Below, in pieces: positions 8,071 to 40,967 of a stretch of 64,000 nt of DNA. The notes below the pieces were generated by a model that saw only the letters and a program-made list of their open reading frames with translations, had not been told where the DNA came from and did not search any database. Source of the stretch: Acidimicrobiia bacterium (lineage in GTDB: Bacteria > Actinomycetota > Acidimicrobiia > Spongiisociales > ZC4RG35); the NCBI GenBank assembly GCA_028284765.1, contig JANQRA010000011.1, positions 62,001 to 126,000 of the forward strand. Reading direction: 5' to 3'. Made by a program: the position numbers and the translations under genes. Each line of letters starts with the position of its first letter. The stretch's first letter is position 1.

Positions 8071-9324
8071 TTGGCCGCGTTTGACCAACAATCTCTGAAC
8101 GAATTGGCGCAGCGAGTCCCCGAATGGCGAGCCTCGCAGATGAGCGCTTCTTTCGAAGTGTTTGACTCACTATCCGAGCCCACCGGGGCTGAAGAAGACT
8201 GGCGATACGTCGACTACGACTTGCCTTTCGACTCACTCGAAGTCGCAATGGAGGCAGGGCCCGCTTTGCCGAAGGGCCCATATGTCGACGGCCTTGGCCA
8301 GAGCTCAGGACATGTCCTAGTAGTTGACGGTCATGTCCTCGATGCCGAGTCGGATCAGCTCGAGGTCCGGAAGATGACAGATGTTTCTGGTTTCTCATCG
8401 CCAGTATCTCCAGACCACAACAAGCTGGCGGCAGCACACTCGGCGTACGCCCACGATGGGGTATTCGTCAAGGTGCCCGACGGCGTTGCCGTCACCGACC
8501 CCCTTGTGGTCGAGGTTCAGGGTGCGACCGAGGGCACAGCTTCGTTTCCGAAGGTCAGTGTCGAAGTCGGTGCGAATGCCGAGGCCTCCGTGCTTGTTGT
8601 CTATCGGAGTGCTGACGGGAAACGTCTGCTGATGGTTCCGGAGATCTCTCTTGATGTCGCCGATGGGGGCAATCTGCGATTTGTCTCTCTGCAGGCGGTC
8701 GACGCCGCCGCATCCAATGTCGTCCATCAGCGTGTCAAGCTCGGACGTGACGCGACTTCCAGAATGGGTGAGGTCGGCCTTGGTGCTGATCTTGGACGTC
8801 TCGACCTTGCCGTGAACCTCGAAGGAAACGGCTCGTCTTCGGAGGTTGTCGGCCTGTACTTCGGCGAAGGATCACAGACACTCGACTATCGGATGGTCAT
8901 CAATCACATCGGACGCTCGACCTCCTCCGATGTTTTTCTCAAAGGCGCGCTGGAAGACGACGCCGAGTCCGTCTTCACCGGCCTGCTCAGGATCGAGAAG
9001 GATGCACAGAAGACGTCCACTTTCGAGACCAACCGGAACCTCGTCCTGTCGGAAAACGCCAAGGCGCATTCAGTACCGAACCTCGAGATCCTTTGCGACG
9101 ACGTTGTTTGCGGTCATGGGTCCTCCGTCGGCCCTCTCGAAGAGGAGCACATGTACTACCTCCAGAGCCGCGGTCTCTCCAAGGAGCGCGCTGAGCGGCT
9201 GCTGATTCGAGGCTTCTTCACCGAAGTAATCGATCGTCTTCCGATCGACGGTCTCTCCGGCCAGGTCTCGAACGCCGTCTTTGACCGCTTCACCAGGGCT
9301 CAGGCCGAGGGGAGGCTGTCATGA
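8071..9324 (+). CDS. sufD: SufD, Fe-S cluster assembly scaffold subunit
   Basis: 417 residues from TTG 8071. SufB/SufD-family beta-helix protein. The short N-terminal WRYVDYDLPFDSL and the C-terminal CDDVVCGHGSSVGPLEEEHMYYLQSRGLSKERAERLLIRGFF are diagnostic, with the conserved His of the SufB-SufD interface in CGHGSSVG. The length and the lack of the SufB core cysteine block point to SufD. It partners with SufB and SufC in the cytosolic Fe-S assembly complex. No sufB is in this window. It overlaps the ferredoxin gene by four bases (ATGA). Confidence 0.9.
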   Translation: MAAFDQQSLNELAQRVPEWRASQMSASFEVFDSLSEPTGAEEDWRYVDYDLPFDSLEVAMEAGPALPKGPYVDGLGQSSGHVLVVDGHVLDAESDQLEVRKMTDVSGFSSPVSPDHNKLAAAHSAYAHDGVFVKVPDGVAVTDPLVVEVQGATEGTASFPKVSVEVGANAEASVLVVYRSADGKRLLMVPEISLDVADGGNLRFVSLQAVDAAASNVVHQRVKLGRDATSRMGEVGLGADLGRLDLAVNLEGNGSSSEVVGLYFGEGSQTLDYRMVINHIGRSTSSDVFLKGALEDDAESVFTGLLRIEKDAQKTSTFETNRNLVLSENAKAHSVPNLEILCDDVVCGHGSSVGPLEEEHMYYLQSRGLSKERAERLLIRGFFTEVIDRLPIDGLSGQVSNAVFDRFTRAQAEGRLS

Positions 9325-17735: not shown

Positions 17736-18950
17736 TCAGGAGACGCCGAACAACTCGCCGGCGTGGCGTAGCCCCTTCTCGAGGGCGTCGATGTCAGACT
17801 CTTCGCTGTAGACGTAGAAGCTGGCTCTGGCGGTCGCTGCGACTCCCAGGCACTTCATGAGCGGTTTTGCGCAGTGATGTCCGGCACGGACTGACACACC
17901 GTTTTCGTCGAGGATCGTCGCCAGATCGTGGGCGTGGACACCTTCCATTGTCATCGAGATGACTCCGCCGCGGTCGGTGAGATCTTTGGGACCCTGGATT
18001 GAGAGTCCCGGCACATCCCCGAGCCGTTCCAGGGCGATGGCTGTCAGCTTCTTGTCGTGTTCGAGAACGGCTTCCATGCCAATGGAGTCCAAGTAGTCGA
18101 TTGCGGCATGCAGGCCCACGGCCTCGATGATCGATGGAGTTCCCGCTTCGAATCGATGAGGGATCGCAGCCCACGTTGATTCGTGGAGCGTCACGTTGGC
18201 AATCATCTCGCCGCCGCCCTCGAAGGGTTCGGTCTCTTCCAGGGCGTCCATACGTCCCCACAGCACACCGATACCGGTTGGCCCAAGCATCTTGTGGGCC
18301 GAGAAAGCCACAAAGTCGGCACCGAGATCTTGGACGTCGACTCCGGCATGGGGGACGAGTTGGGCTGCATCGACGACAACTCGTGCCCCGAATTCGTGGG
18401 ATCGTCGGGCGATGGTCTTTACGTCGGGCATGGTGCCCAGGACGTTGGACATGCCGGTTACTGCGACGATCTTGACCTCAGGGCCAATCTTGTCCTCGAA
18501 GCTCGCCATGTCGAGCCGGCCTTCGTCGTCAATGGCGACGTGGTCGAGGGTGGCGCCGGTCCGCTTGGCGACCATCTGCCATGGAACGAGGTTGGCGTGG
18601 TGCTCCATCTCGGTCGTCAGAATGACGTCGCCTTCCTGCAGGTGTTCGAGACCCCAGCCAAAAGCAACGGTGTTGATGGCTGTGGTCGTGCCTCGGGTGA
18701 ACACCACCTCGTCGTCGGATGCAGCGTTGATGAAAGTGGCGACTCGATGGCGCGCTGCTTCGAAGGCGTCCGTGGCGGCTACGGAGAGCTTGTAGGCGCC
18801 GCGGTGGACGTTGGCATATGAGGTCCTGGCAAACTGATCCATCGCCTCCAGGACCGGAATGGGTTTCTGTGACGACGCACCTGAATCGAGGAAATGGACA
18901 CCCGAGCCGAGAATCGGGAAGTCTTGCTTCAGGTGGGAGAGGTCGGTCAC
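17736..18950 (-). CDS. sufS: SufS, group II cysteine desulfurase
   Basis: 404 residues from GTG 18950. PLP-dependent class V aminotransferase fold. Motifs: FLDSGASSQKPIPVLEAMD at the N-terminus, FTRGTTTAINTVA, TEMEHHANLVPWQ, VDAAQLVPH, the PLP lysine in FSAHKMLGPTGIGVLWG, and the short SufS-type active-site loop VRAGHHCAKPLMKCLG with the persulfide cysteine. It takes sulfur from cysteine for Fe-S assembly. The start overlaps the stop of the second sufC by one base, so the two form one transcription unit. Confidence 0.95.
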   Translation of the reverse strand: MTDLSHLKQDFPILGSGVHFLDSGASSQKPIPVLEAMDQFARTSYANVHRGAYKLSVAATDAFEAARHRVATFINAASDDEVVFTRGTTTAINTVAFGWGLEHLQEGDVILTTEMEHHANLVPWQMVAKRTGATLDHVAIDDEGRLDMASFEDKIGPEVKIVAVTGMSNVLGTMPDVKTIARRSHEFGARVVVDAAQLVPHAGVDVQDLGADFVAFSAHKMLGPTGIGVLWGRMDALEETEPFEGGGEMIANVTLHESTWAAIPHRFEAGTPSIIEAVGLHAAIDYLDSIGMEAVLEHDKKLTAIALERLGDVPGLSIQGPKDLTDRGGVISMTMEGVHAHDLATILDENGVSVRAGHHCAKPLMKCLGVAATARASFYVYSEESDIDALEKGLRHAGELFGVS

Positions 18951-19726
18951 TACTGGTTCAACACCGCCCGGAAGGAATCGTATCCCTCTTCTTCGAGTTT
19001 CTTGGCGAGCTCAGGACCGCCGGACTCGATGATTCGACCGTCCATGAAGATGTGGACGTGGTCGGGGGTGAGGTAGTCGAGGAGTCGCTGGTAGTGGGTG
19101 ATGATCAGGAACCCACGCTCTGGGTTGGTCAGCTTGTTGACGCCGTCGGCGACCGTTCGGAGGGCGTCGATGTCGAGACCAGAGTCGGTCTCGTCCATGA
19201 TCGCCAGCTCCGGCTGAAGGACAGCCATCTGCAGCACCTCGTTGCGCTTCCGCTCGCCGCCGGAAAAGCCTTCGTTCAGGTATCGGTCAGCGAATGATGA
19301 CTCCATGCCGAGTTCCTTCATGGCATCCATGACCTTGAGCCGAAGTTCGAGGACAGTCAGGTCGGTCCCAGTCCGGTTGGAGAGAGCTTGGCGGAGGAAC
19401 TGGATCACGGAGACGCCTGGAATTGCTTCCGGGTGTTGGAAGGCGAGGAACATCCCGGCTGCACCACGATCGGTTGGTGGATCCTCCGTCACGTCTTCAC
19501 CGTTGAAGTGAACTGAGCCCTCTGTTACTTCGAAGACGGGGTTGCCCATGAGGACGCTGGCAAGGGTTGATTTGCCGGAGCCGTTGGGGCCCATAAGGGC
19601 GTGGATTTCTCCACGGTTCACGCTTAGTGAGACACCTTTGAGTATCTCTGTGTCTCCTGCTGAGGCGTGGAGGTTGTCGATTTGAAGAAGAGGTGAGTCG
19701 GTCACGGGTTCAATCGTAATTTCCAC
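18950..19726 (-). CDS. sufC: SufC paralogue (second copy)
   Basis: 258 residues from GTG 19726. SufC-type ABC ATPase with Walker A GPNGSGKSTLASVL, Q-loop LAFQHPEAIPGVSVIQFLRQAL, signature FSGGERKRNEVLQMAVL, Walker B AIMDETDSGLDID and IITHYQRLLDYLTPDHVHIF. It is as good a SufC as the copy at 9629-10429 but clearly diverged, so this is an old duplication or separate acquisition rather than a recent repeat. It is directly upstream of sufS. SufB is not in the window; each SufC may serve a different scaffold or growth condition. Confidence 0.93.
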   Translation of the reverse strand: MEITIEPVTDSPLLQIDNLHASAGDTEILKGVSLSVNRGEIHALMGPNGSGKSTLASVLMGNPVFEVTEGSVHFNGEDVTEDPPTDRGAAGMFLAFQHPEAIPGVSVIQFLRQALSNRTGTDLTVLELRLKVMDAMKELGMESSFADRYLNEGFSGGERKRNEVLQMAVLQPELAIMDETDSGLDIDALRTVADGVNKLTNPERGFLIITHYQRLLDYLTPDHVHIFMDGRIIESGGPELAKKLEEEGYDSFRAVLNQ

Positions 19727-30109: not shown

Positions 30110-30171
30110 CGGGGTAGGAGGCTAATTGGGTGGCTGGCTAGGCTCGGCCGTTGGAACAGGAAAGGTCAGAT

Positions 30172-31539
30172 TTGGCAGATATCGTCATTGTGGGAGGGGG
30201 CCCCGGTGGGTACGCAGCGGCCCTCTACGCACACAACTTCGGCCTCGACGTCGCCCTCGTGGAGAAGGAGCGACCAGGTGGCACATGCCTGATTCGAGGC
30301 TGTATTCCGGCCAAGCAGTGGCTCCACGTTGCAGAGGTGTTCTCAACCGTCAGCCACGCGGCCGATTTTGGTGTGGTCAGCAGTCAGCCTGAGCTCGATT
30401 GGCAGGCTGCTCTCGCCCGCAAGAATCAAACAGTTGAAGGGTTGGTTCGTGGCCTCGGTGGCCTGCTCAAGAAGCGAAGAGTCGAGGTCGTCACCGGTTT
30501 CGGCAAGCTCAATGGGCATGGCCGTGTAGAAGTTTCAGGAGACGAAGGGAATCGGACCCTGGAAGCCGAGAATGTCATCCTCGCCACGGGTTCTCACGCA
30601 CGATCCATCCCGGGATACGACATCGATGGGCACAAGATCGTCACCTCCGACCATGCGCTCGATTGGGAATCGCAGCCGCGTCGGGTCGGGATCGTCGGTG
30701 GCGGTGTCATCGGCTGTGAGTTCGCATCTTTCCTCGCCGACGTCGGATCCGAGGTCCACGTCTTCGAGATGCTCGATCAGATCGTTCCAGGCACCGACCC
30801 GGAATCGGCGAAGATGCTGCAGCGACAGCTCCAGAAACGAGGGGTCAAGTTCCACATCGGAGTCGGAGTTGGACCAGCCCAGATAGGCGAATCGGTTGTC
30901 ATTCCCTTCGGAGATGATTCAGTCGAAGTGGATGTTGCTCTGGTCTCAGTTGGCCGTGGCCCCAACACGGACGGAGTTGGACTCGAGACCACCAAAGCCG
31001 AGGTCGACAGAGGGTTCGTCAAGGTCGATGCATCGACCATGCAGACGGCTCAGCCTGGTTTGTACGCAGTTGGAGACATCGTCGCCGGAACCCCACAGCT
31101 CGCACATGTTGGCTTCGCCGAAGGCATTGCTGCAGTCACCCACATAGCCACTGGCAACGCCCAGCCGGTCGACTACCGCGCGATCCCTCGCGTCACCTAC
31201 ACCCACCCGGAAGTGGCCGAAGTAGGTCTCACGGTCGAGGAGGCAGAAGCCCAGGGCCTCGAGATCGAGACCACAAAGCATGCTTTCAACGGCGTCGGCC
31301 GAGCGATCATCATTGGTCAGAACCAGGGCCATGCCAAGGTCATCTCAGTCAAGGACGGGCCGATTGTGGGTGCCAGCGTGGTTGGCCCACAGGCAGGCGA
31401 GTTGATCCACGAGCTCATGTACTCGGTTGGTTGGGAAGCCCTGCCTTCAGAGGCCGCTGCGTTCATTCACGCTCATCCCACGCTTTCCGAAGCAATCGGT
31501 GAGACACTGATGTCAGCCGCAGGCAAGAGCCTGCATTAG
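30172..31539 (+). CDS. lpdA: Dihydrolipoyl dehydrogenase (E3)
   Basis: 455 residues from TTG 30172, chosen because AGGAAAGG lies six bases upstream and the product then begins MADIVIVGGGPGGYAAALYA. Class I flavoprotein disulfide reductase: FAD motif GGGPGGYAA, redox disulfide GGTCLIRGCIPAK, NAD motif GIVGGGVIGCEFASFLADVGSEV, GDIVAGTPQLAHVGFAEG, and the C-terminal His-Glu HAHPTLSEAIGE. It reoxidises dihydrolipoyl groups of 2-oxoacid dehydrogenase complexes. It starts an operon with the E2 and lipoate-synthesis genes. Confidence 0.93.
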   Translation: MADIVIVGGGPGGYAAALYAHNFGLDVALVEKERPGGTCLIRGCIPAKQWLHVAEVFSTVSHAADFGVVSSQPELDWQAALARKNQTVEGLVRGLGGLLKKRRVEVVTGFGKLNGHGRVEVSGDEGNRTLEAENVILATGSHARSIPGYDIDGHKIVTSDHALDWESQPRRVGIVGGGVIGCEFASFLADVGSEVHVFEMLDQIVPGTDPESAKMLQRQLQKRGVKFHIGVGVGPAQIGESVVIPFGDDSVEVDVALVSVGRGPNTDGVGLETTKAEVDRGFVKVDASTMQTAQPGLYAVGDIVAGTPQLAHVGFAEGIAAVTHIATGNAQPVDYRAIPRVTYTHPEVAEVGLTVEEAEAQGLEIETTKHAFNGVGRAIIIGQNQGHAKVISVKDGPIVGASVVGPQAGELIHELMYSVGWEALPSEAAAFIHAHPTLSEAIGETLMSAAGKSLH

Positions 31540-31548
31540 GAGGAAGTT

Positions 31549-32985
31549 TTGGCCACAACAGTTTCTATGCCCCAACTCGGTGAGACCGTCACTGAGGGAA
31601 CGATCCTCCAGTGGGCAAAGAGCGTCGGAGACACGATCGCCGAGGACGAGGTCCTCGTTGAGATCTCGACCGACAAGGTTGACACCGAGGTTCCATCTCC
31701 GGTCGGAGGAACCATCCTCGAGATACTGGTTCCAGAGGGTGAGACGGTCGAAGTCGGCGTAGATCTCGTGGTCATTGGAGAGGCTGGAGAGTCAGCGGGA
31801 TCCGAAGACAGTTCGCCACCGGCTGAGGCTGAGCCGGCGGTCGAGGAGGCACCTGCTGAGATTTCCCAGGAGGTAGCTGAGGAGCTTCATCCGGCTTCCG
31901 AGACACCTGCAGGGGCCGACACCGGATTCGAAGCGGGTCAGGGAAGCGAGATGTCAGATGAGGAAGTCGATGCCTTCTTCGAAGAGCCATCTCCGGCAGC
32001 CGAGCCACAGTTGCTATCGCCAGTAGTCCGCAAGCTGATTCGTGAGAACGATGTCGACGTCAGCCGGATTTCGGGCACTGGTCAGGGTGGTCGAATCACC
32101 CGCAAAGATGTCGAAGCCCACATCGAGGGTGGCGGAGCCGTCACAGCGCCTGCACCCGCACCGGCTGCAGCCGCGCCAGAGACGCCTGCCGCAACCCCGG
32201 CACCGCCTCCGCCTCCTGTTGTCGAGGAGAAGCCCAAGCAGGCTCCCGCCCCGGCAGCAGCGTCGGGCGCAGAGACGGTCGAACTGGACCGCCTTCGAGT
32301 TCGGATCGCCGAGAACAACATCAAGGCGAAGCGGACCGCTGCACACGTTTGGACCTCAGTCGAGGTCGACTTCGAGCGTGTCGAACGGGTCCGTCAGGCC
32401 CACAAGGCAGAGTTCAAGTCGGACGAAGGATTCTCTCTCACGTACCTGCCGTTCATCTCCCGTGCTGTGATCGATGCGCTCAAGGCGTATCCGGTGGTGA
32501 ACAGTGCCTTCGACCTCGAGAACAAGACAGCGACGTTCTACAAGAAGATCGACCTGGGCATCGCCATCGACCTCAATCAAGAGGGCCTCGTCGTAGCCAG
32601 GGTCCGGAACGCCGATGGGCTTCGCATGGTTGGTATTGCCCGTGAGATTGCCGACCTTGCCAGCCGCGGCAGAAGTGGCGATCTGGGTATCGACGATCTG
32701 AGTGGGTCGACGTTCACCATCACGAATCCTGGCCCGTTCGGGTCGTTCATGTCAGCGCCGATCATCAACGTGCCCAACGTTGCGATCCTGTCGACTGACA
32801 CCATCACAAAGAGGCCGACCGTGGTGACAACCCCGGATGGTCAGGACATGATTGCCATCCGTCACATTGGCTACCTCGGTCTCTCGTGGGACCACCGTGC
32901 TTTCGATGGATCGACGGCAGTGCTGTTCCTCCGTCGGATCAAAGAGAACATCGAGACCTGGGACTGGGAGCAAGAGCTGGCGTGA
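31549..32985 (+). CDS. 2-Oxoacid dehydrogenase E2 (lipoyl acyltransferase)
   Basis: 478 residues from TTG 31549 with AGGAGGAAG seven bases upstream. One N-terminal lipoyl domain (lipoyl Lys in EISTDKVDTEVPSP), an Ala/Pro-rich linker, a peripheral-subunit-binding domain (LSPVVRKLIRENDVDVSRISGTGQGGRITRKDVEAH), a second linker and the catalytic domain ending GLSWDHRAFDGSTAVLFLRRIKENIE with the active His-Arg-x-Phe-Asp-Gly motif. It could be PDH, OGDH or BCKDH E2; no E1 gene is here to decide. A single lipoyl domain is short of the two in many actinobacterial SucB proteins. Confidence 0.9.
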   Translation: MATTVSMPQLGETVTEGTILQWAKSVGDTIAEDEVLVEISTDKVDTEVPSPVGGTILEILVPEGETVEVGVDLVVIGEAGESAGSEDSSPPAEAEPAVEEAPAEISQEVAEELHPASETPAGADTGFEAGQGSEMSDEEVDAFFEEPSPAAEPQLLSPVVRKLIRENDVDVSRISGTGQGGRITRKDVEAHIEGGGAVTAPAPAPAAAAPETPAATPAPPPPPVVEEKPKQAPAPAAASGAETVELDRLRVRIAENNIKAKRTAAHVWTSVEVDFERVERVRQAHKAEFKSDEGFSLTYLPFISRAVIDALKAYPVVNSAFDLENKTATFYKKIDLGIAIDLNQEGLVVARVRNADGLRMVGIAREIADLASRGRSGDLGIDDLSGSTFTITNPGPFGSFMSAPIINVPNVAILSTDTITKRPTVVTTPDGQDMIAIRHIGYLGLSWDHRAFDGSTAVLFLRRIKENIETWDWEQELA

Positions 32986-34640
32986 CACAGCTCCGAACCC
33001 GCTGGTTAGGGCGTCTCCCGTACACGGAGGCGTGGGACCTGCAGCGTGCATTCCACGAAGGAAAGGTCCGCGGACGCACCGATGACGACTACCTCCTGCT
33101 TCTGGAGCATCCGCCGGTGTTCACCATCGGTCGTAACGGCGACGTCAGCAATCTCCTTGTCGGCATGGCAGCGGCTCACGAGAAGGGGGCCGAGGTCCAC
33201 CACATCGACCGGGGTGGCGACATCACTTTCCACGGACCGGGACAGCTCGTCGGCTATCCGATCATCAAGCTCGACGATCCCAAGCAGATCGTTCCCTTCG
33301 TCCGGAAGTTGGAAGAGGTGCTCATTCGGACCATCGCCGAGTTTGGTGTCGAGGGCTGGCGTGAGGACGGATACACGGGTGTATGGACGGAGAAGGGAAA
33401 GGTTGCCGCCATCGGGATCCGGGTCAGCCGCAAGGTCTCGATGCACGGCTTTGCTCTGAACCTCCACCCCGACATGGACTACTTCGGGATGATGAACCCA
33501 TGTGGCATCACCGACCGTGAGGTGACGAACCTCTCCGAAATGGTTGGGCGAAAGATCTCACTCGAAGAAGCCGTCGATGCGCTGGCCCCCCACTTCGAAG
33601 ACGTGTTTGGCTTTGACTCCGCCGAGATTCAGAAGTCGGCATTCGTTAGAGGGCAAGGCAAAGAGTCTTCGTTTGAAGTCGATCGTCTGCTCGAAGCCGG
33701 CACTTTTGATGCAGTTAAACGGACCGAAGAGCCGTTGATGATCAACGGACGACTACCGGGCGAGCCCGTCCGCCCCGAGTGGATGAAGGTGACTGCCCGC
33801 ATGGACTCCGACTATCTGGAGCTCAAGAAGATGATGCGTGGCCTCGAGCTCAACACCGTCTGCGAAGAGGCCAACTGCCCCAACATCTATGAGTGCTGGG
33901 GAATGGGAACCGCGACCTTGATGATCCTCGGGGACAAGTGCACCAGGGCGTGTTCGTTCTGCAATGTGACCACCGGGAAGCCGACCGAGTTCGATGTGTT
34001 TGAGCCGTTCCGCGCAGCAGAAGCCATTGAAGCCATGAACCTCAAACACGCTGTCATCACTTCCGTCAACCGTGATGATCTCGATGATGGGGGAGCGGGC
34101 ATCTTCGCCCAGACCATCACCGAGTCCCGCCGACGATCACCGGGAACGGAGATAGAGGTCTTGATTCCTGACTTCAAAGGTGAGAGAGAGCCGCTTCAGA
34201 CGGTGATGGATGCCCGTCCTGAAGTACTCAATCACAACACGGAGACAGTGATGCGTCTGCAGCGAGACATCCGTACTTCTGCCAACTACGGGCGGTCGCT
34301 TGCCCTTCTATGGCGGGCCAAGCAGATGTATCCGGAGGGTCTTTCCAAGTCGGGGCTGATCGTTGGGATGGGTGAGACCAAAGAGGAAGTCCTGGCGACG
34401 CTGGCGGACATGCGTGCCGTGGGCATCGACATCATTACGATCGGCCAGTATCTGCGCCCGACGTCGAGGCACCGACCAATCCACCGGTACGTCCATCCAG
34501 ACGAGTTCGCCGAGTACAAGGCGTTCGGAGAGGGAATGGGGATCCCGCATGTCGAATCCGGTCCACTTGTCCGTTCGAGCTATCACGCAAAAGAGTCTCG
34601 AGAGGCGGTCCCAGTGACCATCGGAGCGGGACCGGCTTGA
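32982..34640 (+). CDS. lipB-lipA: LipB-LipA fusion: octanoyltransferase plus lipoyl synthase
   Basis: 552 residues from GTG 32982, which overlaps the E2 stop as GTGA. Residues about 1-215 are octanoyl-ACP transferase LipB: RGGDITFHGPGQLVGYPI, Lys in GKVAAIGIRV (about 141) and acyl Cys in NPCGITDR (about 174). Residues about 265-552 are radical-SAM lipoyl synthase LipA: auxiliary cluster C294-x4-C299-x5-C305 (CEEANCPNIYEC), SAM cluster C320-x3-C324-x2-C327 (CTRACSFC), and the C-terminal RSSYHA. No stop or frame change separates them. The two steps (octanoyl transfer, then sulfur insertion) act in sequence on lipoyl domains, including that of the E2 upstream. Confidence 0.95.
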   Translation: MTQLRTRWLGRLPYTEAWDLQRAFHEGKVRGRTDDDYLLLLEHPPVFTIGRNGDVSNLLVGMAAAHEKGAEVHHIDRGGDITFHGPGQLVGYPIIKLDDPKQIVPFVRKLEEVLIRTIAEFGVEGWREDGYTGVWTEKGKVAAIGIRVSRKVSMHGFALNLHPDMDYFGMMNPCGITDREVTNLSEMVGRKISLEEAVDALAPHFEDVFGFDSAEIQKSAFVRGQGKESSFEVDRLLEAGTFDAVKRTEEPLMINGRLPGEPVRPEWMKVTARMDSDYLELKKMMRGLELNTVCEEANCPNIYECWGMGTATLMILGDKCTRACSFCNVTTGKPTEFDVFEPFRAAEAIEAMNLKHAVITSVNRDDLDDGGAGIFAQTITESRRRSPGTEIEVLIPDFKGEREPLQTVMDARPEVLNHNTETVMRLQRDIRTSANYGRSLALLWRAKQMYPEGLSKSGLIVGMGETKEEVLATLADMRAVGIDIITIGQYLRPTSRHRPIHRYVHPDEFAEYKAFGEGMGIPHVESGPLVRSSYHAKESREAVPVTIGAGPA

Positions 34641-35710
34641 GTTTCGACTACCGGGGGAGAGTCAATCGGCTCCAGGAGTTGATGGGCGAACGAGGGGTAG
34701 ACGTAGTCCTGCTGTCGGTAGGGGCTGACCTTCCCTACTTCACTGGCTATGAAGCCATGGCGTCAGAGAGGCTGACCGTCCTCGTAGTCACAGTCGCCGG
34801 TACCCCGCAGTTGTTTGTCCCCCAACTCGAAGCACCTCGGGTGAAGCCAGACGGATTCGAAGTCAACGCCTGGTCGGAAACCGAAGATCCGGTAAGGGCC
34901 GCAGCGGCGGTAGCCAGCCCGCAGCGGGTAGCGGTAGGGGACCACATGTGGTCTGTGTTCATGACCAGATTCCAGAAGCACTGGTCCGCTGAATGGATCC
35001 CTGCATCCGAGATGACGACTGAGCTGCGGATGCGCAAAGACCCCGAAGAGGTCGACCGACTCCGCAAAGCAGCCGAAGGCGTCGATCGGGTGATGGCGCG
35101 AATCCCTGCTGAGGTGAAGTTCTCCGGCCGCACCGAATTGGAAGTCTCTCGTGACCTGCAATCGCTGACCATCGAGGAAGGTCACGATGCGGCCGAGCAT
35201 GCGATCGTGGGCTCGGGGCCGAATGGCGCCTCTCCTCATCATCACGCCTCCGACCGGGTCATCCAGTACGGAGACATGGTCGTTTGCGATTTCGGAGGTC
35301 GATGGGGCGGGTATTGGTCAGACTCCACTCGCACCTTCGTGGTTGGTGAGCCAACGGCGAAGCAAACAGAAGCACATGAGGTCGTCGAAGCATCTAACGA
35401 GGCTGGACGACGGGCCGCCGTTGTCGGAGCTACCTGCCAGGACGTCGATCGAGCATCCCGTGCTGTGATCGATGACGCAGGGCTGGGGGAATACTTCATC
35501 CATCGGACCGGTCATGGCATCGGGCTCGAAGTGCACGAGCACCCCTACATGGTCGAGGGCAACGAAGAAGTGCTGGAAGAAGGAATGGCCTTCTCGGTTG
35601 AACCCGGTGTCTATTTGCCAGGGGAGTTCGGAATCCGCGTCGAAGACATCTGCGTTGCAGGTGTTGGCAGCTTGAACCAGTCAGAGCGGCGTTTGACTAC
35701 GGTTGCATAG
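34637..35710 (+). CDS. M24-family Xaa-Pro peptidase
   Basis: 357 residues from TTG 34637, overlapping the lipB-lipA stop by four bases. N-terminal creatinase-like domain, then the pita-bread peptidase: Asp ligands in VVCDFGGRWGGYWSDSTRTF, His in HRTGHGIGLEVHEHPYMVEGN, Glu in FSVEPGVYLPGEFGIRVEDICV. A co-catalytic dimetal aminopeptidase removing residues before proline. It closes the lipoate operon. About 130 bases follow before cysD, with no gene in them. Confidence 0.9.
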   Translation: MSFDYRGRVNRLQELMGERGVDVVLLSVGADLPYFTGYEAMASERLTVLVVTVAGTPQLFVPQLEAPRVKPDGFEVNAWSETEDPVRAAAAVASPQRVAVGDHMWSVFMTRFQKHWSAEWIPASEMTTELRMRKDPEEVDRLRKAAEGVDRVMARIPAEVKFSGRTELEVSRDLQSLTIEEGHDAAEHAIVGSGPNGASPHHHASDRVIQYGDMVVCDFGGRWGGYWSDSTRTFVVGEPTAKQTEAHEVVEASNEAGRRAAVVGATCQDVDRASRAVIDDAGLGEYFIHRTGHGIGLEVHEHPYMVEGNEEVLEEGMAFSVEPGVYLPGEFGIRVEDICVAGVGSLNQSERRLTTVA

Positions 35711-35840: not shown

Positions 35841-36740
35841 TTGTCTTACGACCACCTGACCGCGCTCGAATCAGAAGCTATCCATATCATCCGCGAGGCC
35901 GTTGCGGAGTCAGAACGCCCTGTCCTTCTGTTCTCAGGGGGCAAAGACTCTGCGGTGGTTCTTCGCTTGGCAGTCAAGGCGTTTTGGCCCGCTCGTCTCC
36001 CTTTCCCGGTCATGCACGTCGACACCGGACACAATTTCGATGAGGTCATCTCGTTTCGGGACCGCACTATTGAGCAACTTGAAGCCCAGCTGATCGTCGC
36101 CTCGGTGCAAGAAGCAATCGATCAGGGTCGAGTGGTTGAAGAAACGGGACCAAGAGCTTCGAGAAACCGGCTTCAAACCGAGTCCCTCCTAACCGCTATC
36201 GACAAGCACCGGTTCGACATGGTCTTTGGTGGTGCCCGTCGCGACGAGGAGAAGGCGAGGGCCAAAGAGAGAGTCTTCAGCTTCAGGGACGAATTCGGGC
36301 AATGGGATCCGAAGAACCAGAGGCCGGAGGTTTGGAGTGCCTACAACGCCAGGATTCGGGTCGGCGAGCACATCAGATGTTTCCCAATCTCGAACTGGAC
36401 CGAGATGGACATATGGCAGTACATCGAGGTTGAGAACATCGAGCTGCCGTCTGTCTACTTCTCACATACCCGTCGAGTCTTCGAGCGTGATGGGATGCTC
36501 ATGGCTGAGTCGCCATATCTTCAGGCCACGAATGAAGAGGAGGTCGCCGAGGCTGTGGTTCGTTTCCGGACGGTAGGAGACATGACCTGCACTGGTGCCT
36601 TCGAATCGAGAGCGTCCAGCGTGTCGGAGATAATCGCCGAGGTTGCAGCCACGAGGATCACCGAGCGAGGAGCTAGTCGGGCGGACGATCGCACCGCCGA
36701 GGCGGCTATGGAGGATCGTAAGAAGGAGGGCTACTTCTAA
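35841..36740 (+). CDS. cysD: Sulfate adenylyltransferase small subunit CysD
   Basis: 299 residues from TTG 35841. PAPS-reductase-like PP-loop fold: PP-motif LFSGGKDSAVVLRLAVKAF, then PFPVMHVDTGHNFDEVI, the adenylyl-site GGARRDEEKARAKERVFSFRDEFGQWDPKNQRPEVW and ISNWTEMDIWQYIE, all typical of CysD. With CysN it makes adenosine phosphosulfate from sulfate and ATP. The stop overlaps the cysN start (TAATG). No PAPS reductase or sulfite reductase gene is near, so the PAPS may go to sulfation. Confidence 0.94.
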   Translation: MSYDHLTALESEAIHIIREAVAESERPVLLFSGGKDSAVVLRLAVKAFWPARLPFPVMHVDTGHNFDEVISFRDRTIEQLEAQLIVASVQEAIDQGRVVEETGPRASRNRLQTESLLTAIDKHRFDMVFGGARRDEEKARAKERVFSFRDEFGQWDPKNQRPEVWSAYNARIRVGEHIRCFPISNWTEMDIWQYIEVENIELPSVYFSHTRRVFERDGMLMAESPYLQATNEEEVAEAVVRFRTVGDMTCTGAFESRASSVSEIIAEVAATRITERGASRADDRTAEAAMEDRKKEGYF

Positions 36741-37996
36741 TGGAGCTCGTGAGGATTGCGACCACTGGCTCCGTGGATGACGGCAAGAGCACTCTCATCG
36801 GACGACTCCTGTACGACACCAAGCAGATCTTCGAAGACCAGCTCGAAGCTGTCGAAGACGCAAGCAAGCGACGGGGCACCGACTATGTGGATCTTGCCCT
36901 TTTGACCGATGGTCTTCGAGCGGAGCGAGAGCAGGGCATCACCATCGACGTTGCCTATCGGTACTTCGCGACCCCTCGTCGGAAGTTCATCCTGGCTGAC
37001 ACCCCAGGTCACATCCAGTACACGCGCAACATGGTGACCGGGTCTTCGACGGCCAACATTGCTCTAATCCTGGTCGACGCCCGTAACGGGGTTCTCGAGC
37101 AAACCAGACGTCACTCATTTCTCGCCTCGTTGTTGGGTGTTCCTCATCTCGTCCTGTGCGTCAACAAGATGGACCTAGTTGATTGGTCTCAGGAGCAGTA
37201 CGAGAGCGTCGTCGAGGACTTTCGGGATTTCGCACGTCGCCTTGACATTCACGATCTGCGGTTTGTCCCGGTGTCTGCTCTCGAAGGAGACAACATCGTT
37301 GATCGCTCCACGAACATGGATTGGTATCACGGTCCGACCGTGCTCGATCTACTTGAAGACATCCACATTGGCTCCGATCACAACATGATCGACGTCCGCT
37401 TCCCGGTTCAATATGTGGTGCGTCCCCACCGTCGCGACTTCCCGGACTACAGGGGATACGCAGGCAAAGTCGCCGGTGGCCTCATGAAACCAGGGGATGA
37501 GGTGATGGTCCTTCCGAGTGGATTCACGTCGTCGATCAAGAGCATCGACACCTTCGATGGCGAGTTGACCGAGGCGGGGCCACCGACCTCCGTGGTCCTC
37601 ACTCTCGAAGATGACATCGACGTCTCACGAGGAGACATGATCTGTCGTCCTCACAACCAACCTCGGTCGTCTCAGGACATCGACGCAATGATCTGTTGGA
37701 TGTCTGACCAATCTGCCCTCCAGCCGGGTCGCAAGTACTCGATCAAACACACGACCAGGTGGGGGCGAGCGATGATCAAAGATCTGCAGTATCGACTGGA
37801 TATCAACACGCTTCACCGCGATAGCTCTGCAAGTCAACTCAGCCTGAACGAAATCGGTCGTGTCACGCTTCGGACAACCACCCCGTTCTTTTTCGATTCG
37901 TATCGGCGCAATCGGGAAACGGGCTCTTTCGTGCTTGTTGACGAGGCGAACAACAACACTCTCGCCGCCGGATTGATCACAGGCGAGGCAGCGTGA
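36740..37996 (+). CDS. cysN: Sulfate adenylyltransferase large subunit CysN (GTPase)
   Basis: 418 residues. EF-Tu-like GTPase: G1 GSVDDGKSTLIGRLLYDTK, switch I region, G3 ADTPGHIQYTRNM, G4 NKMD, G5 SAL, then beta-barrel domains 2 and 3. No fused APS kinase, which is separate downstream. GTP hydrolysis drives APS formation by CysD. It is coupled to cysD upstream and overlaps cysC by four bases (GTGA). Confidence 0.94.
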   Translation: MELVRIATTGSVDDGKSTLIGRLLYDTKQIFEDQLEAVEDASKRRGTDYVDLALLTDGLRAEREQGITIDVAYRYFATPRRKFILADTPGHIQYTRNMVTGSSTANIALILVDARNGVLEQTRRHSFLASLLGVPHLVLCVNKMDLVDWSQEQYESVVEDFRDFARRLDIHDLRFVPVSALEGDNIVDRSTNMDWYHGPTVLDLLEDIHIGSDHNMIDVRFPVQYVVRPHRRDFPDYRGYAGKVAGGLMKPGDEVMVLPSGFTSSIKSIDTFDGELTEAGPPTSVVLTLEDDIDVSRGDMICRPHNQPRSSQDIDAMICWMSDQSALQPGRKYSIKHTTRWGRAMIKDLQYRLDINTLHRDSSASQLSLNEIGRVTLRTTTPFFFDSYRRNRETGSFVLVDEANNNTLAAGLITGEAA

Positions 37997-38583
37997 ACGA
38001 CAACGTCACCTGGCACGCTTCTACAACTAGTCGACGAGATCGCTCATTGATCACCGGTGGCAAGGGGCTGACAGTTTGGCTAACTGGGCTCTCCGGCAGC
38101 GGGAAATCGACCATCGCCATGGAACTCGAGAGCAAGTTGATCGATCGAGGGCGTGCGGCATACGTGCTCGACGGAGACAATCTCAGACACGGAATCAACT
38201 CCGACCTTGGCTTCAGCCCGGCCGACCGTGGCGAGAACGTTCGCCGGGTCTCGGAGATAGCGCGGCTCATGGCGGACGCCGGTCTCGTGGTCCTTGTGCC
38301 CATCATCTCCCCATACGCCAACGGCCGTGGGCAGGCCCGAGCAGCTCACGAAGCAGCCGGCATTGGGTTCATCGAGGTCTTCGTTGATACCCCGCTGGAG
38401 GTATGTGAGGAGCGAGATCCCAAAGGGCTCTACGCAAGAGCTCGTGCCGGCGAGATCAAAGACATGACCGGGATCGATGCGCCCTACGAGGCGCCAGAGA
38501 ATCCCGTTCTCGTCATCGATGGCGCCGCGACGGCAGCCGAGGCCGCCGCCTCTCTCGTGTTGAGCCAGATAGAGAAGTCTTGA
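37993..38583 (+). CDS. cysC: Adenylylsulfate kinase CysC
   Basis: 196 residues from GTG 37993. P-loop kinase: Walker A GLSGSGKSTIAMELE, DGDNLRHGINSDLGFSPADRGENVRR, PIISPYANGRGQARA, FVDTPLEVCEERDPKGLYARARAGEIKDMTGIDAPYE and the terminal ENPVLVIDG. It phosphorylates APS to PAPS, the donor for sulfotransferases. It ends the cysDNC operon 21 bases before the convergent VanW gene. The sulfotransferase-like region at 53724-55490 is a possible user. Confidence 0.94.
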   Translation: MNDNVTWHASTTSRRDRSLITGGKGLTVWLTGLSGSGKSTIAMELESKLIDRGRAAYVLDGDNLRHGINSDLGFSPADRGENVRRVSEIARLMADAGLVVLVPIISPYANGRGQARAAHEAAGIGFIEVFVDTPLEVCEERDPKGLYARARAGEIKDMTGIDAPYEAPENPVLVIDGAATAAEAAASLVLSQIEKS

Positions 38584-38604: not shown

Positions 38605-39966
38605 CTAGCTGACGTAAGTCCACCACCAGGTCTCGGTCGTTGTCACTCCGGCCGTGGTGAGTTTGCGGACCACCTTCACTTGCCCCGGCGCATTTCCGGT
38701 GACGGTCGCACTCACTCGTTTGGCCTCAGACCACGAGCCCGCATCGATGACGCTGATGACCGAGGATCTGTTTCCTCTTGGGTGATGTCCGACTACCTGC
38801 CAGTCGCCTTGGTTCCCCCAGAGTTCAACGGTGACCGATGTCGAGGTACTCGATGTCTCGATATAGATGGGAGTTGTGGTGTCGTTGGTGAACCTGAAGT
38901 CGATGGAGTTGTAGATAAGGGTGTGTTCGATACCGAGTGGGTATCGAGATAGCCAGCCGGTGTGGGGTCTGAACGTGCCGACGTCGTAGCCTGCCCAGAA
39001 GACAGCGTTGAAGATGGTCGTTCCGAACTGACTCACGCCGCCGCCAGGAACGCAGCACGCTCCCTCGCCATTGATCAGGTACCCGGCAGGAAGGTACCCC
39101 TTGGCCTCGGTCGTGGGTCCGACCACGGAATCGAGTGAGAACTCCTCGCCGGGCATGACGACATACCCATCGATGGTTCTTGCCATGAGGCGGATGTTGG
39201 TGACGCGGTCTTCACAGCAGTTGAAGAACGTGGTGAACCTCGACACTCGCTCGATCGGTTTTTGAGGAGGAGGAACGTTGGGTTCGAGACCGAGGGCGCG
39301 TGTAAAAAACGAAGCGATCTGATCTCGGGTCACCAGGTCTCGGGGGCAATACCAATCGTTGGCAGGTGGGTTGCAGCCTTTGGTTATCCCCGCCTCGGCG
39401 ATCTTGTTGATGTTCAGTTCGTGGATGTTGGTTTCGTCGTCGATGAACTGGTCCGGTGGGTTGTCCGTCATGAGCCACGGGAAAGCTCTCGCCATCATTG
39501 AAGCCATCTCGTCTCGGTGGACCAAGCCGTTGGGGCAATAGCGATCGTTGTCTGGTGGGTTGCAGCCGTTCGTGATCCCTGCCTCAGCGATGGCGTTGAT
39601 GTCGTTCTCGAAAATCGAGTTGTTGTCGTCTGTGAAGTAGTCGACTTCGGTGGAAGGCAGGTCCAGTGCGCGACGAATGAATGCAGCGATCTGGCCTCGA
39701 TCCACGACTCCGCGTGGACAGAACCGTATGCCTCGGCTGTCGCACCCAGTGGTGATTCCCTCTGCCGCGATCGCTTCGATGTCGCCTTCGTGGACGCTTC
39801 CGTCATCGTCGATGAAGGTTCCTCCCGGTGGGAGCTCTTCAGCCTGGGCTACTGAAGCGAGCCCGAGCACAACGAGGGCAACAATCGTGCCGAGGAGTGT
39901 GCGTCGTAACACACTGGTCAGTCTGCCAGGTGGCAAGTCGCTATTGAGCGACTGGACCCAAGTCAT
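38605..39966 (-). CDS. VanW-domain protein with three cysteine-type SLH repeats
   Basis: 453 residues from ATG 39966, which overlaps the upstream stop as ATGA; the longer frame to 40074 is rejected. Basic N-terminus then a signal peptide (VLRRTLLGTIVALVVLGLASVAQA). Three SLH-like repeats (about residues 45-235) with the cysteine pattern GC(N/D)...(F/Y)CP. The rest is a VanW domain: FNCCEDRVTNIRLMARTIDG, MPGEEFSLDSVVGPTTEAKGY, GACCVPGGGVSQFGTTIFNAVFWAGYDVG, YPLGIEHTLIYNSIDFRFTN. VanW function is unknown; it is found in peptidoglycan- and sporulation-related surface proteins. Here it is probably anchored to the wall by the SLH-like part. Confidence 0.88.
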   Translation of the reverse strand: MTWVQSLNSDLPPGRLTSVLRRTLLGTIVALVVLGLASVAQAEELPPGGTFIDDDGSVHEGDIEAIAAEGITTGCDSRGIRFCPRGVVDRGQIAAFIRRALDLPSTEVDYFTDDNNSIFENDINAIAEAGITNGCNPPDNDRYCPNGLVHRDEMASMMARAFPWLMTDNPPDQFIDDETNIHELNINKIAEAGITKGCNPPANDWYCPRDLVTRDQIASFFTRALGLEPNVPPPQKPIERVSRFTTFFNCCEDRVTNIRLMARTIDGYVVMPGEEFSLDSVVGPTTEAKGYLPAGYLINGEGACCVPGGGVSQFGTTIFNAVFWAGYDVGTFRPHTGWLSRYPLGIEHTLIYNSIDFRFTNDTTTPIYIETSSTSTSVTVELWGNQGDWQVVGHHPRGNRSSVISVIDAGSWSEAKRVSATVTGNAPGQVKVVRKLTTAGVTTTETWWWTYVS

Positions 39967-40967
39967 CCTGATGCCCTCACGGTCACGATCGTTGTCAACA
40001 CCGTGTCTCCATCCCATCGCCACTCGCCTTCCAGAGAGTGGGTCCCCGATGTGAAGCTGAGCGTTCGAGTCCATGTTCTGAAGGAAATGCCGCCGGTCGT
40101 GTAGGTCGGTTCTTCGGTGACCGATATCTCAGGACCGTCGAGGTAAAGCCGAAACTCAGTGTTGCCGGCCTCGAACTCCGCCATTTCTGAACCCGTGGCG
40201 GGAAGATCCTGGAACCACCCTTCTTCGACCTTGTAGCTCGCGCCCGCCGACAGATCGACTGTGATCCGGCAGGTCTCGCCGTCCTTCGAGCAAACGAGGT
40301 CAGCATGCTCACCCATCGGGATCTGTTGAACGATGTCAGGGAGATCCAGTGCTCGCCTCAAGAAGGCTGCCATAGCGCCACGATCCACGGTGTTGTTGGG
40401 GCAGTACTGCGTATTCGCCGGCGGGTTGCAGCCTTTGGTGATTCCGGCTTCGGCGATGGCGTTGATGTCGGCTTCGAATATCGAGTTGTTGTCGTCGGTG
40501 AAGTAGTCGGCCCCAGCCAACGGGAGGTTCAGCGCTCGCCGGATGAAGGCGGCCATCGCACCGCGATCGACGTCTGTGTTCGGGCAATACCTTGTGTTTG
40601 CCGGTGGGTTGCAGCCTTTGGTGATTCCGGCTTCGGCGATGGCGTTGATGTCGTTCTCGAATATCGAGTTGTTGTCGTCTGTGAAGTAGTCCGTTGCGCT
40701 GTCGGGGAGGTTGAGGGCTCGCCGGATGAAGGCGGCCATGGCACCGCGATCGACGTCCAGGCCAGGGCAAAACTCGGTGTTTGCCGGTGGGTTGCAGCCT
40801 TTGGTGATTCCGGCTTCGGCGATGGCGTTGATGTCGTTCTCGAAGATGTTGCCGTCGTCGTCATCGAAGTACCCGTTCAGTACCAGGCCATCGGCGTCCG
40901 GGCTGACTGCAACGAGCACCACCAGCCCGAGGAAGCCCGCCACCCCAAGCGCAATCCAGCGCCTCAC
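39963..40967 (-). CDS. Exported protein with three cysteine-type SLH repeats and a C-terminal beta domain
   Basis: 334 residues. Signal peptide (MRRWIALGVAGFLGLVVLVAVS), then three near-identical 61-residue repeats (about 30-210): YFTDDNNSIFE, AGITKGCNPPANT, YCPN and RGAMAAFIRRALNL. They match SLH domains in order but with an added Cys pair. The last 120 residues (DLVCSKDGETCRITVDLSAGASYKVEEGWFQDLP and later) form an unrecognised beta-rich domain. The DNA repeats are in register at 183 bases. Coupled by ATGA to the VanW gene. Likely a wall-bound surface protein. Confidence 0.85.
   Translation of the reverse strand: MRRWIALGVAGFLGLVVLVAVSPDADGLVLNGYFDDDDGNIFENDINAIAEAGITKGCNPPANTEFCPGLDVDRGAMAAFIRRALNLPDSATDYFTDDNNSIFENDINAIAEAGITKGCNPPANTRYCPNTDVDRGAMAAFIRRALNLPLAGADYFTDDNNSIFEADINAIAEAGITKGCNPPANTQYCPNNTVDRGAMAAFLRRALDLPDIVQQIPMGEHADLVCSKDGETCRITVDLSAGASYKVEEGWFQDLPATGSEMAEFEAGNTEFRLYLDGPEISVTEEPTYTTGGISFRTWTRTLSFTSGTHSLEGEWRWDGDTVLTTIVTVRASG
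40411..40867 (-). repeat. In-frame 183-bp tandem repeats coding SLH-like units
   Basis: The segment coding the GITKGCNPP motif recurs at 40428, 40611 and 40794, exactly 183 bases apart, with very high identity on both DNA and protein level. The high conservation points to recent duplication or gene conversion among the repeat units. Confidence 0.8.

Follow-up and report, generated by a model that had tools for sequence, protein, structure and literature searches.

LipB transfers acyl groups by means of a Cys/Lys dyad, Cys176/Lys142 in the Mtb enzyme and Cys169/Lys135 in that of E. coli, with an RGG loop placed over the active site (PMC9307952). LipA carries a radical-SAM cluster bound by a Cx3Cx2C motif together with an auxiliary cluster held by Cx4Cx5C and RSSY motifs; the auxiliary cluster supplies the sulfur and is spent in doing so, and in E. 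coli NfuA renews it (PMC12246082). The two activities reside in two separate proteins whose genes are often neighbours, both in other Actinomycetota and in other phyla, with lipA preceding lipB in Thermomicrobia. A related single-chain arrangement is the bifunctional lipoate--protein ligase/lipoyl synthase of NCBIfam model NF053790, where an acyl-transfer domain of the same superfamily as LipB also lies N-terminal to LipA. For LipB joined to LipA we found neither a model in NCBIfam nor a paper, the latter being weak evidence as most subscription journals lie outside the coverage of the search.

Here we describe a gene, lipBA, in which LipB and LipA are joined in one reading frame. It lies in a stretch of 64,000 nucleotides of an Acidimicrobiia genome (contig JANQRA010000011.1, positions 62,001 to 126,000), referred to below as the window, whose relevant features are as follows.

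8071–9324: SufBD-core protein
17736–19726: ABC ATPase and class-V aminotransferase (SufS-like)
30151..31539, + strand: lpdA, dihydrolipoyl dehydrogenase (E3), TIGR01350 above cut-off
31549..32985, + strand: E2 dihydrolipoyl acyltransferase with one N-terminal lipoyl domain, best model SucB_Actino at 406.9 bits, just under its cut-off of 423
32982..34640, + strand: lipBA, fusion of an octanoyltransferase (LipB) with a lipoyl synthase (LipA), 552 aa, GTG start
32982..33626, + strand: LipB half, residues 1–215
33210..33260, + strand: LipB RGG loop (77–79) and FHGPGQLVGYP (83–93), core residues invariant in 30 fused homologues
33399..33401, + strand: LipB catalytic Lys140, invariant in the same 30
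33501..33503, + strand: LipB catalytic Cys174, likewise invariant
33627..33767, + strand: interdomain linker, residues 216–262, FEVDRLLxxGTF conserved in near relatives
33768..34604, + strand: LipA half, residues 263–541
33861..33896, + strand: auxiliary [4Fe-4S] motif C294-x4-C299-x5-C305, invariant in 30 fused homologues
33939..33962, + strand: radical-SAM cluster motif C320-x3-C324-x2-C327, invariant in the same 30
34572..34583, + strand: RSSY, residues 531–534 (Ser = auxiliary-cluster ligand), Arg-Ser-Ser invariant and Tyr nearly so
34637..35710, + strand: pepP/pepQ-like Xaa-Pro peptidase, its start overlapping the lipBA stop

Translation of the + strand from 32982 to 34640 gives 552 codons with no internal stop, and Pfam places LplA-B_cat at residues 14–205, LIAS_N at 265–299 and Radical_SAM at 314–475 of the product. 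A first-pass annotation of this DNA had proposed a LipB-LipA fusion in a single frame, overlapping the E2 stop by GTGA and located downstream of lpdA; translation and the Pfam and NCBIfam models bear this out in full, and a GGAG sits 11 nt 5' of the GTG start. The complete set of LipA cluster motifs that it listed is present, as are FHGPGQLVGYP and Cys174 of the LipB active site, with a single correction: the catalytic Lys is residue 140, not 141.

Both halves are recognized by the models for their respective families and both are intact at their catalytic sites. The protein passes the LipB models TIGR00214 (155.7 against a cut-off of 83.55) and NF010925 (214.4 against 155), and the predicted structure of the LipB half superimposes on LipB structures 2qhs (Z 31.9, rmsd 1.5, 210 aligned residues) and 1w66 (Z 30.6, rmsd 1.6, 203 aligned). 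Lys140 corresponds to Lys142 of Mtb and Lys135 of E. coli, Cys174 to Cys176 and Cys169, respectively, and R77-G78-G79, K140 and C174 do not vary in an alignment of 30 fused homologues that reaches down to 49% identity. The whole catalytic domain, dyad and RGG loop are shared with LipB as represented by these models and structures, from which the Acidimicrobiia protein differs in bearing a C-terminal LipA domain. TIGR00510 (350.3 against 310.25) and NF004019 are likewise passed, and the model of the LipA half matches LIAS/LipA chains with Z scores of 35–39.5 and rmsd values of 1.3–2.6 over 266–299 residues. It has the Fe-S motifs and RSSY in common with LipA/LIAS (TIGR00510; 5exk, 8tsk, 9c19), the last RSSY residue being His in a few of the 30 homologues, but carries an N-terminal LipB domain where LipA/LIAS has a short N-terminal extension. 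Judged from sequence, neither half looks degenerate. The protein is also distinct from the NF053790 fusion, which has an LplA ligase rather than LipB at its N terminus; its score with that model is 375.7, the cut-off being 800, with the LipA part, residues 253–538, alone aligning.

The source genome is a 23-contig assembly and neighbouring, separate lipB and lipA genes are common in other bacteria, so that one might ask whether two such genes had been joined by a chimeric assembly or a frameshift artefact, a worry attached to the fusion from the outset. The distribution of the protein leaves next to no room for this reading. A search of sampled genomes of the class matched the lipBA protein in 276 of 296, and nearly every match listed for the class crosses the LipB–LipA junction in one piece. 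Open reading frames were recomputed from stop to stop for all fetched loci, with both halves found in one frame at 132 of them, which derive from 90-odd distinct sampled genomes and from 37 named database contigs, some of the latter belonging to one and the same species. Among them are single-cell genomes of Actinomarina (L054–L057), MAGs of Acidimicrobiales (L063, L064, L068) and assemblies of one or very few contigs (e.g. G018, G110, G190). Genomes of the class with two matches mostly contain one frame with a longer linker, as established by inspection of the open reading frames. In the matches that cross the junction, the occasional lone internal stop lay, in the cases checked (L138, L142, L147), in the C-terminal overshoot. 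In the window itself the GC content by codon position shows an unchanged coding pattern throughout the junction, 33600–33860. Its recurrence in independent assemblies excludes both chance and a chimeric contig as the source of the fusion.

Exceptions in the class are very few. One genome (G052) contains a second, separate lipB/lipA pair (L175, G052:C83) that was considered as a fission of the fused gene and rejected, its LipA being closest to a Gemmatimonadota sequence; as far as sequence similarity can tell, the pair probably stems from a foreign contig or from transfer, and G052 carries the fusion as well. A lone LipB in another genome (L201, G092:C15:4500-12500) is closest to the fused LipBs, with neither LipA nor E2 nearby, and a loss, a relict or a split subsequent to fusion is possible.

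Outside the class the fusion was absent from the genomes of the Actinomycetota sample, where LipA and LipB are separate; the nearest out-of-class LipA, with 58% identity (family code f66), is encoded by a separate gene. Nor was the fusion found in a sample of the phylum that contains Thermomicrobiota (71 of 81 genomes with a match) or in a Pseudomonadota sample (60). In two apparent fusions in Actinomycetota, G469 and G444, the halves are separated by stops, and an apparent Pseudomonadota fusion (G630), to which the matches gave a 575-aa open frame, turns out on translation to have two of them in that position. The lipB–lipA gap in this last genome (L176:3119-3300) is occupied by palindromic-type repeats that read IPAFAGMT/DSRLRGNDD.

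Trees were calculated for each half. In that for LipA (67 rows) a branch supported at 99 sets the 37 fused rows apart from the rest, and in that for LipB (64 rows) the fused rows are likewise set apart, with support of 78, so that support for monophyly of the LipB sequences is moderate. Since the fused sequences form one clade in each tree, a single fusion event in the ancestor of the class is likely and would explain the pattern most simply. Plausibly lipB lay immediately 5' of lipA in the precursor, given that this order is common in Actinomycetes.

The gene order lpdA–E2–lipBA is kept from the family of the source genome to Actinomarina and Acidimicrobiales, and an Xaa-Pro peptidase gene is often found 3' of lipBA in the class. 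The E2 encoded in the operon is the probable main substrate. Other likely lipoyl targets of the source genome are a second E2 accompanied by an E1-beta-like gene (C5:82920) and GcvH (C12:195406). When the 23 contigs of this genome were searched with the lipBA protein one match was obtained, and hence the fusion carries the sole LipA. A second LplA-B_cat protein (L167:1396-2202; C5:123681-124142 of the same genome) resembles LipM/LipL-like GcvH-dependent transferases weakly, far below the cut-offs of their models, and could share the acyl-transfer work. Next to it (L167:2203-3279) is a 358-aa frame that by eye resembles a type II 3-dehydroquinate dehydratase (AroQ) joined in one chain with an alpha/beta-hydrolase domain (VLVHGGFW...GHSAGA).

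The first-pass annotation had also drawn attention to suf genes in the same window. Genes of suf type are present, but lie ~13–25 kb from lipBA and outside the operon, and the point is a weak one. Sulfate assimilation genes occur 3' of the lipoyl operon (35841-38583), CysD being assigned by family search and CysN-like and CysC-like proteins by eye. Beyond these, at 38605-40967, are two adjoining proteins on the minus strand with repeats such as FxDDDNSIFENDINAIAEAGITKGCNPPAN, one of them with a VanW domain.

What the covalent link between the halves might accomplish was considered from the properties of the linker and from structure prediction. The spacer between the LipB Cys and the first LipA Cys ranges from 89 to 237 residues across the class; most near relatives, and Actinomarina too, have 118–120. 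AlphaFold2 gave a pLDDT of 86.7 and a pTM of 0.88 for the lipBA protein of the window, and in a second prediction led by the distant member L064 the pTM was 0.86 with a disordered linker (227–269, pLDDT under 50). Two floating domains of this size (~215 and ~285 residues) are estimated to give a pTM near 0.5–0.6, and since both values exceed this range the two models appear docked. In both, moreover, alignments with LplA-type structures span the LipB half and for the most part stop in one and the same LipA helix, residues 436–449 of the window protein and 463–474 of L064, which lies where the LplA core has its end in the alignment. This suggests, as a hint only, that the LipB and LipA halves dock, and with a similar placement in the two models, docking being judged here from pTM values and fold-search ranges for two predictions whose alignments have members in common.

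It had been proposed at the outset that the covalent link suggests substrate channelling. The link by itself does not show this: what would be channelled is a protein domain, and linkers differ widely, although the two models suggest docking. True channelling, in which the lipoyl domain would move from the site of LipB to that of a docked LipA and not be released on the way, draws some strength from the recurrence of the same helix placement in models built from different first sequences and linkers, and from the substrate E2 being encoded adjacent to lipBA. A mobile protein-domain substrate can, however, reach separate enzymes, many bacteria do without a fusion, and the overlap in membership between the two alignments weakens the structural argument, so that we consider channelling unlikely. 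At the other extreme the halves might be fused for the sake of co-expression only and work independently and uncoupled, possibly after proteolysis or internal initiation. The wide variation in linker length and sequence in the class and the disorder of the L064 linker speak for this, and the halves may be separated by internal translation or proteolysis. Yet there is no conserved internal Met in the linker among the fused homologues of the class, and for the start codons of lipBA around the point where the LipA half begins, Shine-Dalgarno matches are poor or out of place; from the single reasonable one, a GGAG lying 9 nt ahead of the ATG at 33831, a truncated LipA domain would result. Most near relatives keep both the length and the motif of the linker, the pTM values lie above the expectation for independently floating domains, and separate genes are very scarce in the class. 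Fusion for co-expression only, while by no means far-fetched, seems doubtful to us. A further proposal is that of a fixed docked unit by which one lipoyl domain would be octanoylated and sulfurated in one encounter, octanoylation being coupled to a charged LipA auxiliary cluster, and which would have been fixed since the origin of Acidimicrobiia; we regard it as quite improbable.

The reading that we prefer, and hold to be very probable, is that lipBA encodes one bifunctional enzyme carrying out the LipB step followed by the LipA step, which was fused once in the ancestor of the class and kept beside lpdA–E2. It draws on the uninterrupted frame, the intact catalytic residues of the two halves, the spread of the fusion through the class, the conserved gene order and the lack of a further LipA in the source genome. 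The LipB half would take the octanoyl group from octanoyl-ACP onto Cys174 and transfer it to the lysine of the E2 lipoyl domain, with the second E2 and GcvH as probable further acceptors. The LipA half would then insert two sulfurs into the octanoyl chain by radical SAM chemistry, at the expense of its sacrificial auxiliary cluster. The tether would provide both activities in equal amounts and join them on the same lipoyl domain. It is from the established biochemistry of LipB and LipA that we infer activity of the two halves, their order of action and any kinetic benefit. The fusion itself would have arisen a single time from adjacent lipB and lipA genes.

By sequence each half is an ordinary member of a known family, and it is the joining of LipB to LipA that appears to be the new part; that the fusion is class-wide and ancient is a weightier fact than its presence in one genome. 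Such proteins are very likely already in sequence databases under one-sided names, a caution for automatic annotation, which may name one half only. The fusion supplies a protein marker for the whole of Acidimicrobiia, including the abundant marine Actinomarina. As a natural single-chain and class-wide form of the two-step route of lipoyl assembly, it makes the interaction of LipB with LipA and the handover of the lipoyl domain testable, which is hard with separate enzymes.
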